Virus record (IMG/VR): IMGVR_UViG_3300041411_000260
Location: 1 to 28,784 of that record
DNA from: a virus
Strand: one strand, 5' to 3'
Length of the DNA: 28,784 nucleotides
Shown here: piece by piece, positions 11,174 through 28,784 of the stretch
Layout of the letters: each line of letters opens with the position of its first letter
Numbering within the stretch: position 1 is the stretch's first letter
Translations under genes and position numbers: made by a program
Notes under the pieces: model-generated
The model's database searches: none
Told to the model about the DNA's origin: nothing
The model's input: the letters and a program-made list of their open reading frames with translations, nothing else

Positions 11174-11698
11174 CTATAGCTTTGGTAATGTGATCACCGC
11201 ATAAGCTATCACGGCGATACCTGCTGAGATGATGAGAGCTAAATTACAATAGTATAAGCTTGAGCTTTTTCTATCGTTATTAATGGTGCAAATCGTGGCG
11301 CAATTCATATAGTTTTCATAGTAATATTTGCGTAAGTCTTGAGCTACTTTCTCTTCGGAGTTTTCTTCGTCGCTGTAATAGTCAATGAGGTCTAGTCTGT
11401 ATTTTTCAATGGTGTTAGGTGCAGGCAAATTTTCATCCATTTTGCCAAGCAAAGCATCAATAAAAAAATATACCCCTATTGCGAGTACTGATATCGAGAT
11501 GGCTAATATAGTTAGAAACCATATTTTCGCACCCAATGTCAGTGCGGCTCTATCTCCGCCAATTATGACGGAGTAAAAGCCCGCGATTGCGATTATAGTC
11601 GCTAGAGGTATGCTTAATCGGGCAAAAATCTGTTCCTTTCTCGCGAGCTCCTGGAAGTAGATTTTTTCAAAGTGTTCAAATAGTTTGTCGATGGTCAA
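11174..11698 (-). CDS. Three-TM protein of the TIR-caspase operon (174 aa)
   Basis: An amphipathic N-terminal helix (1-27) leads into TM1 (28-47) and TM2 (57-83), then a charged cytoplasmic segment (85-145, EKYRLDLIDYYSDEENSEEK) and TM3 (146-170). Helical-bundle membrane proteins of this layout are common as effectors in bacterial defence operons (SLATT-like or other TM effectors), where they would perturb the inner membrane. The start is TTG at 11698, with AAGGA 8 nt upstream, right after the caspase stop (14 bp gap). It is AT-rich like the rest of the operon. I cannot assign it to a Pfam family; it may be an effector, or a membrane anchor for the protease. Confidence 0.7.
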   Translation of the reverse strand: MTIDKLFEHFEKIYFQELARKEQIFARLSIPLATIIAIAGFYSVIIGGDRAALTLGAKIWFLTILAISISVLAIGVYFFIDALLGKMDENLPAPNTIEKYRLDLIDYYSDEENSEEKVAQDLRKYYYENYMNCATICTINNDRKSSSLYYCNLALIISAGIAVIAYAVITLPKL

Positions 11699-11712
11699 GT
11701 TTTAGTCCTTGC

Positions 11713-12684
11713 CTAAATTCTTTTGTTGTTTATTAATTTCCAGTAGTGTTCGCCTAATACTGTGAGCTTGCAAGACTTGGAGTTCATCGCGGCAAAATAC
11801 ATGTGATCTTCGCCTACAGGCTTGACCAAATTGAGGCGGTTGAGCTTCTGAAGAATAGCAAATTTTCTTGTGTTCTCCGGATTCGGTTCGATTCCGTGAT
11901 TAGGTGCTGGTGGCTGAGGTTCAAAACTGGGGTCTAATGCAAACTCAGAGTTTGCAGTTTCAAAAAGCTCACTTATTTGTCTCAGTTCGGATAACTGTAT
12001 CGGTGGCGATACTTTTCTTAATGAGGTAAAAGCCTTAACGTTTGTTTTGAAAACCGGTCTTTGCTCCCAAAGACTTAATGATTGGTCGATGTGAGCATAT
12101 ATACTGCCTGGAGTAATGTCGCCAAGTAAATTGGCTGCGCCACCGTTGAGAGCATCAACAAATAATGATGTAAATACTCCTGAGCCGTTTACCTCCTCAG
12201 CGTACTGCCCTTCAGTGGAGGCGGTTAGAATTGTCATCCCTTCGGTTAGCAGAGCTTTGTCGCCGAGCGTCTTTGAGGATCCAGCAATTCCTGAATGACA
12301 GCTATCTAGTACAATAATTTTATTAATGGCTTTGGATGAGTTGGCAATGTCAAGTATCTCTTGCAATGGCATCCCGTCATCGCCGTCAGCACACTCTGAT
12401 GTTAGTAAGTAACCGCCGGTGTCTTCGACGTGACCGTGACCAGCGAAATAAAAAAGCGCAATTTGGCAATCGTCTTCGAATAGCTTTCGAATGTATTCTT
12501 TTAACTCTTTTCGGGAGATTGAACTTGCTGCGTCGACGGAGGTTATATGTTTTACGTCAAAGTTAAGTTCGCCGTCCATGTGCCGCTCAAGCACTTGGTT
12601 TACCGCGTATGCATCGTTGACGCAGCCATATAGCTGGTTCAGGTGTTCGTAGTAATTGATCCCCACAACTAATGCTTTTTTCAT
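11713..12684 (-). CDS. Caspase-like (peptidase C14) protease, candidate effector
   Basis: A 323-residue protein with a metacaspase/caspase-like p20 fold: the N-terminal ALVVGINYY, the catalytic dyad His83 (YFAGHGH) and Cys129 (VLDSCHSG), and the downstream STEGQYAEE segment (about 165-175). Residues about 230-275 form a proline-rich linker (FEPQPPAPNHGIEPNPEN) and the C-terminal 60 residues (ILQKLNRLNLVKPV...KLTVLGEHYWKLI) look like a winged-helix or ligand/partner domain. Cys-His proteases of this class cleave after basic residues. Directly paired with a TIR-like gene by ATGA overlap, it fits the effector of type IV Thoeris, in which the TIR product N7-cADPR activates a caspase-like protease that degrades cell proteins. 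Pairing is clear; the ligand is inference. Confidence 0.9.
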   Translation of the reverse strand: MKKALVVGINYYEHLNQLYGCVNDAYAVNQVLERHMDGELNFDVKHITSVDAASSISRKELKEYIRKLFEDDCQIALFYFAGHGHVEDTGGYLLTSECADGDDGMPLQEILDIANSSKAINKIIVLDSCHSGIAGSSKTLGDKALLTEGMTILTASTEGQYAEEVNGSGVFTSLFVDALNGGAANLLGDITPGSIYAHIDQSLSLWEQRPVFKTNVKAFTSLRKVSPPIQLSELRQISELFETANSEFALDPSFEPQPPAPNHGIEPNPENTRKFAILQKLNRLNLVKPVGEDHMYFAAMNSKSCKLTVLGEHYWKLINNKRI

Positions 12685-13103
12685 GAGCGGTTTGCTGCGT
12701 TTTTTCCTTCCCCCATCATTTGGGTGACTGCATTAGCAATCCCGTCCCAAGTCCAATTAATGACTCTGTTTCTATTAAGTCCTGCTGGAAGTGTGCTGTT
12801 GGAGTTTGCCTCGTCAACATATACGCCAAAAATTGGAACGTTCTGAGAACGAGCCATTTCTATTTCTTTAACTACACCTGTGGCGGTGGCCATATGGCGA
12901 CCGACCAAGACTATTAGAAGGTGCGTTTTATTGATTTTTTCTTTTACAATCGCTTCCCATTGAGACTGAGGCATGGGGCTTTTTGCAGACCAGTCTTCAT
13001 GTTTGAAGGGGGTTTTGGAATGCCAAGCCTGACCGGCAAATAGATTTTTGTGGTCGCTGTTATTATCAACGTCAAAACTGATAAAAGCGCGTGGTTCAGC
13101 CAT
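12681..13103 (-). CDS. TIR-like (DUF1863/ThsB type) protein
   Basis: A 140-residue single-domain protein with a Toll/interleukin-1 receptor-like fold of the ThsB/MTH538 type: strand A RAFISFDVDNN, the motif HEDWSAKSPMPQSQW, strand C HLLIVLVGRHMA, the helix VVKEIEMARS with the candidate catalytic Glu80 or Glu82, and strand D VPIFGVYVD. ThsB-type TIRs convert NAD into a cyclic ADP-ribose signal on phage infection. The ATG at 13103 is chosen by AAGGGA 8 nt upstream; a longer frame would run into the promoter region. Its stop overlaps the caspase start, so the two are coupled. It is in an AT-rich segment unlike the tail genes. It lacks an extra sensor domain, so phage recognition must be in the TIR fold or in a partner. 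Confidence 0.88.
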   Translation of the reverse strand: MAEPRAFISFDVDNNSDHKNLFAGQAWHSKTPFKHEDWSAKSPMPQSQWEAIVKEKINKTHLLIVLVGRHMATATGVVKEIEMARSQNVPIFGVYVDEANSNSTLPAGLNRNRVINWTWDGIANAVTQMMGEGKNAANRS

Positions 13104-13234
13104 CTTATAATCCCTTAACCAAATGAATGAAAGGGGAGTGTGACTCCGTGACGGCATTTTGCCAACAGGGTTATAAAATAATTTATAACTGACTGATATT
13201 TAATATGTTTTTTTGAAAAGAAGCGTTTTCTATT
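13104..13234 (-). promoter_or_regulatory. AT-rich leader of the TIR-caspase operon
   Basis: This 131-bp gap between gene D and the TIR gene is AT-rich. It holds the inverted repeat TTATAAA-N4-TTTATAA at 13171-13188, which could provide -10-like elements or bind a regulator. No Ogr-type dyad, and no convincing terminator after D, was seen. The operon may have its own promoter here and may also receive read-through from the late tail operon. Confidence 0.4.
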
Positions 13235-25321: not shown

Positions 25322-25662
25322 ACGCTGGCCCCCAGCTGCAACGGGACGCTAAGACTCAAGGGCTCGTTGGTGTCGACACGGCTGCATTCGATGTCCATCA
25401 CCGTCTGACCTTGCAACGTGGCCCCCATGAACTGCACGCGGCTGAGGGAAATCCGGGGTTCCCAGCGCATCAGGGCCATGACGGTGGCGGCGTAGACGCG
25501 CAGCCGGGTGACGTCATTGAACGGATGGTCGACCAGCTCCGGCAGAAAGCTGCCGTACTCCCGGCGCATCACGCGGGTGCCGAGGCGAGTAGTCAGGATG
25601 TCGGTGGTCGACTGGACGATATGCTCGACGGTGTCGATCGCGGCGCCGGTTTCTCGGTTCAT
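25318..25662 (-). CDS. W: Baseplate wedge protein gpW
   Basis: P2 gpW-family (gp25-like lysozyme-fold) baseplate wedge protein, 114 residues (115 in P2), with the VRMREYGSFLPELVDHPFND block (in the form VMRREYGSFLPELVDHPF). Start overlaps the V stop (ATGA) and the stop overlaps the J start, so it is translated by coupling. Confidence 0.95.
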   Translation of the reverse strand: MNRETGAAIDTVEHIVQSTTDILTTRLGTRVMRREYGSFLPELVDHPFNDVTRLRVYAATVMALMRWEPRISLSRVQFMGATLQGQTVMDIECSRVDTNEPLSLSVPLQLGASV

Positions 25663-26249
25663 TCCGGTTTCCCCGTCTTGCCGCTGCCTGACATCACGCC
25701 GCCGTGCGGATGGTTGACCAAGCTGATCTCGGCGGCGACCACATCTTCCGAGGCGATGACTTTCCCAGTGATGGCTTGATTGCCTTCCTGGGTGTAATTG
25801 CCGGTCTGCGTGTAGTCACCTTCATGGGTGATCGATCCGACGATGTGAATACCGCCGGTACTAATCAAGTCCGTGGTACCGCCTTCCACCAGCACGGCGC
25901 TGAGGTGGTGAGCAACGCTGTCGTACTCGATGACGGTGCCGTCGTGATAGGTGCGCCGGTGCAGCCCAGGGCGATCGCCATTGGCCGGATTGAGGTCGCT
26001 GAAAATGCCGGTCAGGGCAATGCCGTTACCCAGTTGCCCGGATGGGCTGAACAGAATGACTTGCTCATCGACCGTAGGCGGGTCCCATTCCTTGCCCGCA
26101 CCGGCGCGCAAAGTGATCCACGGCAGCCAGGCAGTGGTCAACGTTCCAGTATTTACACGCACACGGGGGGGCTTCATCTGTATTTCGGCGATGGTGCCAA
26201 AGCGGATGAGGTTTTCGATCAGGCGGGCGAGGGTGGCTAAATCGTTCAT
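25659..26249 (-). CDS. V: Baseplate spike protein gpV
   Basis: P2 gpV-family spike that pierces the host membrane, 196 residues (211 in P2). The N-terminal OB fold starts MNDLATLARLIENLIRFGTI, which lines up with the P2 N-terminus, and the C-terminal beta-helix ends in the metal-binding tip HPHG at His180/His182, which in P2 binds iron through an HxH motif. Repeats THEGDYTQTGNYTQEGNQ (141-158) are typical of spike beta-helices. It heads the V-W-J-I-H operon, with an Ogr-type dyad upstream. The Shine-Dalgarno is weak. Confidence 0.94.
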   Translation of the reverse strand: MNDLATLARLIENLIRFGTIAEIQMKPPRVRVNTGTLTTAWLPWITLRAGAGKEWDPPTVDEQVILFSPSGQLGNGIALTGIFSDLNPANGDRPGLHRRTYHDGTVIEYDSVAHHLSAVLVEGGTTDLISTGGIHIVGSITHEGDYTQTGNYTQEGNQAITGKVIASEDVVAAEISLVNHPHGGVMSGSGKTGKPE

Positions 26250-26296: not shown

Positions 26297-26315
26297 TGTA
26301 GGCGAGTAGGCTACA
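26297..26315 (-). promoter_or_regulatory. Putative Ogr site of the V late promoter
   Basis: TGT-N13-ACA at 26297-26315 with the same extended form TTGT-N12-TACAGG as the FI site. It is centred 57 bp before the V start codon; at the P2 distance of about -55 this would leave almost no leader, so the exact promoter position is uncertain. It also lies between V and the divergent nuclease-like gene, 78 bp before that start codon. Confidence 0.6.
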
Positions 26316-26392
26316 GGTGGTCGGTCTAAGCTATGGTGTCGAAACGCCCAAACGGCAGAAATATCTCGATTGATTTCAAAGGAGTGAACTAG

Positions 26393-27613
26393 ATGTTGTC
26401 AATTATGCATCCAAGCGTTATGCGTAAGGTTCATGAATTATCTATCGGGCTTCTGCCTGTAATAATTAAGGCTGATTCGATTCCTAAGCTGATAGTTAAA
26501 GTATCTAAGGAGGCCATCTTAACGGCTAAGGTTAGGAAGGGGTTCCTGATTTATTTGATTCCGTATGAGGTTTTGGGGGTTAAGTCTGTTGGTTTTTTGG
26601 CGGCTTTTTTTGATGATCAACACCATCCTTATACGGCGAGCGGCGCGCTGATTAAGGAGTTGTCAGGAAGGGAGCTTTCTAAGTTGTTCGTCGCTCCCGT
26701 AGTTGATGTGCATTTTTTCGACGAGCTTGGGAGGGAAATGTTGGCCTATCGGGCAGATTTTAAATCTACCAAAAAACATCGTGATATGTTACGTGGAGCA
26801 GTTATTCCGAGCATTCATGGATTGAATCAAGGTGCAGTTCTTGATCAGATCAATGATTGGTACAAGCTCAGTAGTTTGGAAGATGATGCTTCGGCAATAA
26901 AAGTGACCTTTGTAGAACCGATCATGCCAGAGGATATTGTTTATTTTGATTTGCGTCATGATGTCAACAGCTATCACGGGAGTCCAGGTTTTAGTGAGGC
27001 TCCCCTTGAGCGTGAGATTCCCGGGCCACCTCAAGAGAAAGAGATAATCGCTTTGCTTCAACGTACTTTTGATTCTAATGAAATCTATTTGGCACCAAAA
27101 AGGACAGACGACAAAAGGGAGGTGGTCGATATTCTCGTTGTTACAGATCAGAGTGTCATTTTGATCCAGGCTAAGGATAATCAGAATCTTGAAAGCATCC
27201 TAAATAAGACGATTGAAAAAAAACGAATGGCGACAAATAAAGCATTGAAGAAGGGGCTTGTTCAAATTGGGGGTGGAATAACTTACCTTAAGAAGTCGTC
27301 GCTTTTGGTGTTTTTGATGGGTGGGGAGGAGGTCGAAATAGATTTGACCGGTAAGAGAATTTATTCGATTGTTATTGTCAAAGAGTTATTTATTGATGAT
27401 TATGATGTTTATACGCCGCCTATGCTTGAGCTGTATGAGAAGAGTGGAGTCCCATGCATCCCATTGTCGTATAGTGAGTTGCATCAGTACACACGCTTTA
27501 TTCAGGGGGATCAACCATTCTTCGAGGCTTTTATAAAAGTTTTTAATCATGGGTTAGAAACTGGGATGTTCCCCCGTCTGCGAGTGTTGCCCCCTGGTTC
27601 TATTGTTAACTAA
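26393..27613 (+). CDS. PD-(D/E)XK nuclease-like cargo protein inserted between S and V
   Basis: A 406-residue protein. Its centre carries a restriction-endonuclease-like core: Glu215/Glu217 in QEKEIIALLQ, Asp246 in EVVDILVV and Gln259-Ala-Lys261 in VILIQAKDN, a pattern of the PD-(D/E)XK fold with Gln in place of the usual Asp/Glu. The N-terminal 200 residues (FFDDQHHPYTASG, VIPSIHGLNQGA) and the C-terminal 100 are unassigned. GGAG is 8 nt before the ATG. Unlike its neighbours it is on the plus strand and AT-rich, and its stop (TAA) overlaps the S stop. It is cargo, probably a defence nuclease, though target and trigger are unknown. Confidence 0.75.
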   Translation: MLSIMHPSVMRKVHELSIGLLPVIIKADSIPKLIVKVSKEAILTAKVRKGFLIYLIPYEVLGVKSVGFLAAFFDDQHHPYTASGALIKELSGRELSKLFVAPVVDVHFFDELGREMLAYRADFKSTKKHRDMLRGAVIPSIHGLNQGAVLDQINDWYKLSSLEDDASAIKVTFVEPIMPEDIVYFDLRHDVNSYHGSPGFSEAPLEREIPGPPQEKEIIALLQRTFDSNEIYLAPKRTDDKREVVDILVVTDQSVILIQAKDNQNLESILNKTIEKKRMATNKALKKGLVQIGGGITYLKKSSLLVFLMGGEEVEIDLTGKRIYSIVIVKELFIDDYDVYTPPMLELYEKSGVPCIPLSYSELHQYTRFIQGDQPFFEAFIKVFNHGLETGMFPRLRVLPPGSIVN

Positions 27614-28074
27614 TCACGAATAGTGAGGTGCGATAGTAAGCCGTCGCGGATCAAATCGAGATCCGCTTCGGTGAAACCGAGAATTTCTCGCTGTTCGTAC
27701 TTTATATTAGGAGCGTCACGCTCCGCACGATCCTTCAATCCGTACTGATGCACTCTGGCTATGCGAGCGATGCGACCCGTGAAGCCAACGCTGATGGCGT
27801 TACCGTCACCCTGAACCTTGAGAAAGCTAGCGGTGCGCAGCTTCTGGAACATCTGAACTTTCCGCTTCACCCGTCCCTGTTTACCGCGCAGGTTATGCTG
27901 CTTGCGCGGGGCATACTTGCTGCCATCCGGATTGCGCTGGGTGATCACTCTTTGCTGTTGGCTGCGGCGTAAAGCCTGACCGAGGCTTCGAGCCAGTCTG
28001 TTGCGTGATGCGGGCTCCAGTTGCCCGAGCAGGCCGGCCGCCCAATCTTCCAGCGCCTCCAGTCTGTTAGTCAT
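27610..28074 (-). CDS. S: Tail completion protein gpS
   Basis: P2 gpS-family virion morphogenesis protein, 154 residues (150 in P2), acting at the tail end. Recognisable are MTNRLEALEDWAAGLLGQLE and the basic central segment PRKQHNLRGKQGRVKRKVQM. It overlaps R by 8 bases and its TAG stop overlaps the stop of the convergent nuclease-like gene at 27610-27613. In P2 it ends the O-to-S operon. Confidence 0.93.
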   Translation of the reverse strand: MTNRLEALEDWAAGLLGQLEPASRNRLARSLGQALRRSQQQRVITQRNPDGSKYAPRKQHNLRGKQGRVKRKVQMFQKLRTASFLKVQGDGNAISVGFTGRIARIARVHQYGLKDRAERDAPNIKYEQREILGFTEADLDLIRDGLLSHLTIRD

Positions 28075-28546
28075 TCGGGACTACCCACTCATTACCTGTG
28101 GCCTGAGTACCCGGAATCCATGCGGAGTCTAGAAACGCCGCGACACGCTGAGGTTCACCAGGATGCCTGATGGTGGTATTGCCTTCGGCGTCCTTGCCTA
28201 CGACCACGCGCTCGGTCAGCGGCAAGGTCAGGCTGAAATCCACTTTGCTGTTGTCGAGAATGTCGGCTTCGAACTGGATGCCGGCGGCGGACTTGTTCAG
28301 GTTTTCCAGCAGCTCGGATTGATGGACGCTCAGCCAGCCGAGCAGTGGCAGCATGACACTGTCGGGGTGGCCGGCGAAGTCGGTGAGGAGGACTTGTAGG
28401 TCGAAGCTGTATTCAAACGAGAGGCTGGCCGCAGCAGTGCAACGGACTTTGCCGTTATCGATAAAGATCAGCAGTCGGTCGGGGTTGTGTTTGAGTTCGG
28501 CAACGGTGGCCAACAGATGAGCGCGCAGGCTCTCGGGTTTGTTCAT
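28067..28546 (-). CDS. R: Tail completion protein gpR
   Basis: P2 gpR-family protein, 159 residues (155 in P2), essential to complete the tail. The start MNKPESLRAHLLATVAELK, RLLIFIDNGKV and AASLSFEYSFDLQVLLTDF follow the P2 protein closely. The ATG at 28546 overlaps the Rz1 stop (ATGA), so it is coupled to the lysis genes, as in P2. Confidence 0.95.
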   Translation of the reverse strand: MNKPESLRAHLLATVAELKHNPDRLLIFIDNGKVRCTAAASLSFEYSFDLQVLLTDFAGHPDSVMLPLLGWLSVHQSELLENLNKSAAGIQFEADILDNSKVDFSLTLPLTERVVVGKDAEGNTTIRHPGEPQRVAAFLDSAWIPGTQATGNEWVVPND

Positions 28547-28784
28547 GGGGTGGCCTGTTGATGCTGATAAACCATATCGACCTGACCTGCGCATTCTGCC
28601 CAAGCAGCCTCGACGCGGTCCTGGTCGCTGAGTTGGTCGCCGTTACTGTGTGGACTAGTCGCCGGCAGAGTGCAGGGCACCACGGCCGGACAACCACTGA
28701 CGATAAGCGTCGGCGCCGGTGAGAGTGGGGCGCTCGCGCAGCCGGCGAGCAGCATCAGGCAAAGGCTGACCAGCCCAGTCGCGT
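28543..28784 (-). CDS. lysC: Rz1-like outer-membrane spanin lipoprotein (LysC-like), cut by the window end
   Basis: Partial CDS: the start lies beyond 28784. The frame reads ATGLVSLCLMLLAGCASAPL, a lipoprotein signal with the lipobox LLAGC, so the real start must be upstream of the ATG at 28755. The mature part is a short Pro/Ser-rich, Cys-containing peptide ending VDMVYQHQQATP. Rz1-type spanins fuse outer and inner membrane in the last step of lysis, together with Rz. The gene overlaps the Rz frame, as expected for this pair. Confidence 0.82.
   Translation of the reverse strand, partial: ATGLVSLCLMLLAGCASAPLSPAPTLIVSGCPAVVPCTLPATSPHSNGDQLSDQDRVEAAWAECAGQVDMVYQHQQATP
28655..28784 (-). CDS. 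lysB: Rz-like inner-membrane spanin (LysB-like), C-terminal fragment
   Basis: Partial CDS in another frame. The visible C-terminus contains DWAGQPLPDAARRLRERPTL, then GADAYRQWLSGRGA and the stop TAG at 28655-28657. This RP-L-TGA-AYRQWL block is typical of LysB/Rz-family spanins of P2-like phages. The start and TM segment lie outside the window. Rz1 is nested in its 3' end. Confidence 0.8.
   Translation of the reverse strand, partial: RDWAGQPLPDAARRLRERPTLTGADAYRQWLSGRGALHSAGD

Follow-up and report, generated by a model that had tools for sequence, protein, structure and literature searches.

The stretch of DNA analysed here (the window) comprises the 28,784 nucleotides of IMG/VR virus record IMGVR_UViG_3300041411_000260 and originates from a P2-like phage, whose minus strand, read leftwards, encodes the genes R, S, V, W, J, I, H and further tail genes. 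Between the tail genes S and V the ORF list contains an antisense gene of 406 amino acids with an ATG start (26393-27613, plus strand), referred to as the cargo gene in the following. The features of this region are:

25659-26249, minus strand: baseplate gene V, which opens the next late operon and flanks the slot (baseplate V/Apex families, PF04717 and PF18946)
26297-26315, minus strand: activator-like palindrome TGTAG-N9-CTACA at -66 to -48 of V, probable Ogr-type site (77/77 phages; the annotated site of P2 has the same position)
26380-26384, plus strand: ribosome-binding site AGGAG of the cargo gene, 8 bp upstream of the ATG (from the sequence; AGGAG is also kept before relatives)
26393-27613, plus strand: cargo gene, predicted solo PD-(D/E)XK nuclease of an unnamed family (ORF, full-length relatives, AlphaFold2 model)
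26393-27010, plus strand: N-terminal domain, residues 1-206, with invariant G19, K36, D74, P79, D110 and E115; proposed sensor or DNA clamp (AlphaFold2)
27023-27391, plus strand: predicted PD-(D/E)XK core, residues 211-333 (helix 212-222; strands 247-250 and 254-260; helix 274-300; strand 322-329; AlphaFold2, Foldseek, alignment)
27035-27037, plus strand: E215, predicted active-site helix glutamate (invariant 58/58)
27128-27130, plus strand: D246, predicted metal-binding aspartate (ExxD, with E243; invariant 58/58)
27167-27175, plus strand: Q259-A260-K261, QxK half of the motif (invariant 58/58)
27610-28074, minus strand: tail completion gene S, which closes the upstream late operon and flanks the slot (Phage_tail_S, PF05069, E 2e-37)
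28067-28603, minus strand: gene R (matches P2 GpR)

The original prediction, which was made from the sequence alone, had described the gene as antisense to the tail genes, divergent in base composition and overlapping with its stop codon that of S by four bases, and all three points are borne out. The TAA of the cargo gene (27611-27613, plus strand) and the stop codon of S (27610-27612, minus strand) share the bases CTAA, and the GC content is 41.9% compared to 57-64% in the neighbouring tail genes (42% versus 63-84% at third codon positions). A chance ORF was ruled out by shuffling, conservation and dN/dS: the longest open run over 500 shuffles was 181 codons, compared to the 406 codons of the cargo gene, the reading frame is kept in full-length relatives of 98-27% identity, and dN/dS is 0.13 toward the nearest relative, the other relatives being saturated at synonymous sites. 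Judged from these sequence comparisons, the cargo gene is real, conserved and under purifying selection. That it forms part of the tail operon was likewise ruled out, as it lies on the opposite strand, differs in composition and is absent from relatives with an empty slot, in which a gap of 61 bp separates the flanks. A sigma-70 scan of the upstream region revealed no clear promoter, and promoter and terminator scans gave results at chance level.

The slot itself is already known: it is the orf30 locus of P2, and PMC3091744 counts three variable loci in P2-like phages, namely orf30, Z/fun and the TO-region. The P2 record (AF063097) places the nonessential gene orf30 in the same S-V slot in the same antisense orientation, and annotates S as followed by a terminator and V as preceded by an activator site for its promoter. 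In 77 related viral contigs holding both S and V, a palindrome TGT-N12/13-ACA was found 66 bp before the V start in every case, with filled as well as with empty slots, while it appeared in 4/77 shuffled controls. As its position equals that of the annotated P2 activator site, the palindrome probably serves the V operon as late-activator (Ogr-type) site. The cargo sits between palindrome and S. The S/V junction had been proposed to be an operon boundary at which an insertion does not break tail expression; the terminator and activator site of P2 and the palindrome in 77/77 phages agree with such an expression boundary, and the sparing of tail expression is supported because the conserved activator-like site is left intact with the cargo beyond it.

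The comparison of the slot across prophages that had been suggested as a check was carried out on the same 77 contigs. Six slots are empty (61 bp) and 71 are filled with AT-rich inserts of 0.5-2.9 kb (GC 37-49% versus about 63% for V), which encode 86 proteins falling into 33 protein families (loci L101-L180). The slot thus holds a variable accessory gene at a conserved site that spares the phage operons. The largest insert ORF is antisense in 40 of the 71 filled slots, so antisense cargo is common and not a rule. Pfam and PADLOC searches gave matches for 39 cargo proteins, among them Septu PtuA-like and OLD/AriA-like ATPases, AbiV, FRG and HEPN/Toprim proteins, as well as Mrr, DUF4145, DUF4062, a trypsin-like peptidase and ParE. 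Such a defence-like nature of the S/V slot in Pseudomonas phages is not described in PMC9122126, PMC9519451, PMC3091744 or PMC13182921. Many of the cargo families are unrecognised, and candidates for defence genes can readily be drawn from the slot. In each of the ten P2-like loci with a nuclease of the window type, the gene lies in the S/V slot (L016 shows V only, at a contig end), and these copies form one clade (support 100/99) confined to Pseudomonas P2-like phages. Based on this phylogeny, the nuclease probably entered once and was then inherited and exchanged within the P2-like phage group.

An AlphaFold2 model of the window protein, built from a 58-row alignment of relatives, reached a pLDDT of 92.3 and a pTM of 0.90. 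Residues 212-329 follow the PD-(D/E)XK order of helix, strands, long helix and strand, and in the model E215 belongs to the first helix, D246 lies at the second strand and the third strand ends with Q259-A-K261. This corresponds to the alpha-beta-beta-beta-alpha-beta core of the superfamily with a glutamate in the helix, an aspartate in the second strand and a (D/E/Q)xK motif in the third. The structure search called for in the original prediction returned as best PDB match the nicking endonuclease Nt.BspD6I (Foldseek probability 0.92-1.00, E 2.5e-3 to 9e-3), followed by Card1 (probability 0.91) and, lower, Mus81-Eme1 and Hef, all of them PD-(D/E)XK enzymes. As the Foldseek E-values are modest (best 2.5e-3), the fold call is based on motif, topology and fold match jointly. 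By the features tested, the window protein is a predicted PD-(D/E)XK protein, in agreement with the proposed nuclease core with a QxK variant, and the numbering given for D246 and K261 was right. A sequence search of the PDB found nothing, and a structure search of BFVD gave no clear match, with some restriction-endonuclease-like matches at low TM-scores. The N-terminal domain, modelled alone with a pLDDT of 94.3, had no match in a fold search of the PDB (best probability 0.08). A set of 300 Pseudomonas genomes contained it solely in combination with the nuclease, and no independent architecture of the domain was detected there.

The relatives of the window protein form a coherent family of approximately 400-residue proteins (398-426 amino acids with few exceptions), with about 80 members ranging from Pseudomonas to Acidobacteria and Bacteroidota. 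In 58 of 58 non-redundant relatives the residues G19, K36, D74, P79, D110, E115, L205, G211, E215, P235, E243, D246, Q259, A260, K261, D262, K277, Q291, E331, F333 and Y360 are invariant, and the catalytic residues are still retained at about 30-40% identity. According to protein searches, full-length relatives are encoded by plasmids from Roseibium, Pseudomonas, Acetobacter and Paracoccus as well as by viral contigs. A scan of 84,980 species genomes yielded 76 family loci, mostly in Proteobacteria and additionally in Acidobacteria and Bacteroidota, a count that is a lower bound because the scan relied on just two short peptide patterns. The window protein matches no Pfam, NCBIfam or PADLOC model, the family is absent from the PADLOC models, and a tblastn search of the INPHARED phage set gave no match; PHROG 30399 matches the nuclease core of the window protein with an E-value of 2e-9. 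As a family the protein is new, while as a kind, i.e., a prophage cargo nuclease, it is ordinary.

Some variants of the family were observed besides. A 398-residue member resides on a Pseudomonas/Stutzerimonas mobile element, both plasmid-borne and chromosomal, which carries a run of three tyrosine recombinases together with a thymidylate synthase (L007, L060, L062-L064, L066, L071-L073 and L078). A distant version of the nuclease with 22% identity and a QSK motif occurs in an IncFIB phage-plasmid from Salmonella and in viral contigs related to it (L010, L021-L023). Six loci contain frameshifts or stop codons (L069, L074, L083, L089, L093 and L096), which may mean that the nuclease is costly to carry or that the assembled genomes contain sequencing errors.

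The genes surrounding family members were analysed within two positions, giving 126 proteins from about 60 loci, and were compared to 126 control proteins from the same genomes. At a threshold of 1e-8, 264 PADLOC models were matched by the neighbours versus 43 by the controls, which is an enrichment in kind and no precise ratio, since the models are not independent and one ATPase matches dozens of them. The neighbour matches are led by Gabija/OLD-type ATPases and helicases, while those of the controls are mostly due to one reverse transcriptase. An OLD/GajA-type gene lies beside one member (L045), a TIR gene is found directly upstream of the Roseibium member, and a type I restriction-modification system and a DUF4238 gene are located near the Acetobacter member. 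Ordinary metabolic neighbours occur too, such as an alpha-glucosidase (L036). No recurrent partner gene was detected across the family loci except on near-identical mobile elements, from which it follows that the nuclease gene probably works alone. The claim of an unassigned single-gene defence system stood with respect to the missing partner and the missing coverage by Pfam, NCBIfam and PADLOC, and its defence part is carried by context: we infer protection against phages from the slot cargo and from the defence-rich neighbourhoods, and nuclease activity, trigger and expression in the lysogen are presumed as well.

The window contains a second AT-rich cargo block next to gene D (11174-13157, minus strand, GC 39-45%) with the following genes:

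11174-11698, minus strand: 174-residue protein of no assigned function
11713-12684, minus strand: caspase-like protease, EACC1-associated type
12681-13157, minus strand: ThsB-like TIR protein

Such a pairing of TIR and caspase-like proteins points to Thoeris-like signalling in which a protease would be the effector.

Taken together, the cargo gene is considered with fair confidence to be a horizontally acquired stand-alone nuclease and a lysogenic-conversion (moron) gene that would serve as a single-gene system against phages or mobile elements. In the proposed mechanism, the C-terminal PD-(D/E)XK half with E215, D246, Q259 and K261 would cut nucleic acid, most likely DNA, in a Mg2+-dependent manner. 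As a solo nuclease without methylase or antitoxin it would have to tell self from foreign by a feature of its target (modified bases or DNA ends) or through a trigger that arises on infection. Recognition of this target or trigger, for which modified DNA, DNA ends and phage products come into question, would fall to the N-terminal domain, which has a set of invariant acidic residues of its own and, with no partner methylase or antitoxin present, would keep the nuclease off host DNA. In the lysogen the cargo gene may be read from a promoter of its own, facing either leftward or rightward, with late tail expression unbroken; such reading would be compatible with the tail genes because the slot is flanked by the end of the S operon on one side and by the activator site of V on the other. 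Direct, sensor-gated cleavage of invading DNA is favoured, because the two-part build matches that of Shedu and of type IV enzymes, and abortive action is the main rival. More tentatively, and with somewhat less than even confidence, the N-terminal domain might represent a new or strongly diverged fold that senses infection by an undescribed route, and the S/V slot a third P2 defence hotspot beside A-Q and Z/fun with many single-gene systems.

An abortive-infection effector, in which infection switches on the nuclease to attack host DNA or RNA so that the cell dies, would fit the missing cognate modification enzyme, the several frameshifted relatives as expected for a costly gene, and the presence of the signal-activated PD-(D/E)XK effector Card1 among the fold matches. 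However, no conserved signalling or antitoxin partner adjoins the gene and the N-terminal half lacks a ligand-binding domain of known type, which leaves this explanation unlikely, though it is to be taken seriously. The same nuclease could also act in superinfection exclusion or competition between prophages, aimed mainly at P2-like phages or satellites instead of general defence. The copies in the P2 slot are, as outlined above, one clade in one slot of one phage group, as expected for vertical upkeep by the phage, and a system from a P2 hotspot is reported to block P2 itself (PMC9122126); yet the majority of the family is found outside P2-like phages, namely on plasmids, in chromosomal islands, in other phages and in phage-plasmids, and such a restricted role appears improbable. 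Slightly more improbable still is a housekeeping nuclease for DNA repair, recombination or mobile elements, carried as a passenger without a role in defence. PD-(D/E)XK nucleases fill many such roles and ten Pseudomonas copies adjoin the trio of tyrosine recombinases on one mobile element, but no recombination partner is constant across the family, its distribution is patchy with a full-length copy in 15 of 300 Pseudomonas genomes, the neighbours are rich in defence genes, and in its slot it is exchanged against cargo of defence type.

If the stand-alone defence nuclease is confirmed, a widespread single-gene family with a sensor domain without known fold has been missed by the catalogues of defence systems. 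The P2 orf30 locus would then be a mapped and easily cloned hotspot, bounded by the S stop codon and the conserved activator-like site, and two primers would suffice to amplify dozens of candidate defence genes from it.

Compared to P2 orf30, the window gene occupies the same slot in the same antisense orientation, in which the P2 gene is nonessential, but it is a different gene. PHROG 30399, a group without an assigned function, is distant (22% identity), and an alignment shows that the Salmonella phage-plasmid relative (L010) keeps the N-terminal as well as the nuclease motifs. Among known families, HMM scans and profile comparisons with Pseudomonas members did not assign the window protein to Shedu, Mrr_cat, NERD or GapS1. 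The profile comparisons were run without calibrated secondary structure and exclude close kinship only, because the known families also fail to link to each other (NERD-Mrr 1%).

The nearest named domain is NERD (PF08378), to which 8 of 58 members give matches with E-values up to 1 (the best one, 0.005, falling short of the Pfam cut-off) and the window protein none, with a profile comparison of about 1%; in one Pseudomonas protein the same stretch is matched by the family profile and by NERD. NERD has an ExK motif, whereas the window family has QxK. GapS1 (NF047931) is an anti-phage protein that acts alone and contains a PD-(D/E)XK-like stretch, D-(x)n-ExK, but it comprises 530 residues with an ECK motif; the window protein gave no match to its model, 2 of 58 members matched weakly (E 0.09), and the profile comparison reached at most 10%. 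Mrr shares the QxK motif (VQAK in Mrr, IQAK in the window family) and the build of a solo nuclease with a separate recognition domain, and differs in its N-terminal domain. Mrr_cat (PF04471) had no Pfam match in the window protein or in the members, and the profile comparison gave at most 11%.

Shedu (SduA, PF14082) shares the single gene of approximately 400 residues, the variable N-terminal domain joined to a C-terminal PD-(D/E)XK nuclease, and the location in prophages and defence islands. Its motif is ExK in contrast to the QxK of the window family. The SduA_C model did not match the window protein and matched 1 of 58 members weakly (E 0.05), and the profile comparison with Pseudomonas Shedu gave a probability of 1-2%. 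N-termini vary among Shedu proteins, and the fold search of the PDB gave no match for that of the window protein. A review describes for EcSduA an N-terminal clamp that attaches to DNA ends, and nicking by the nuclease at a set distance (PMC12904381). The best reading of these comparisons is that the window protein may work like Shedu or like a type IV restriction enzyme, while standing outside all families tested.
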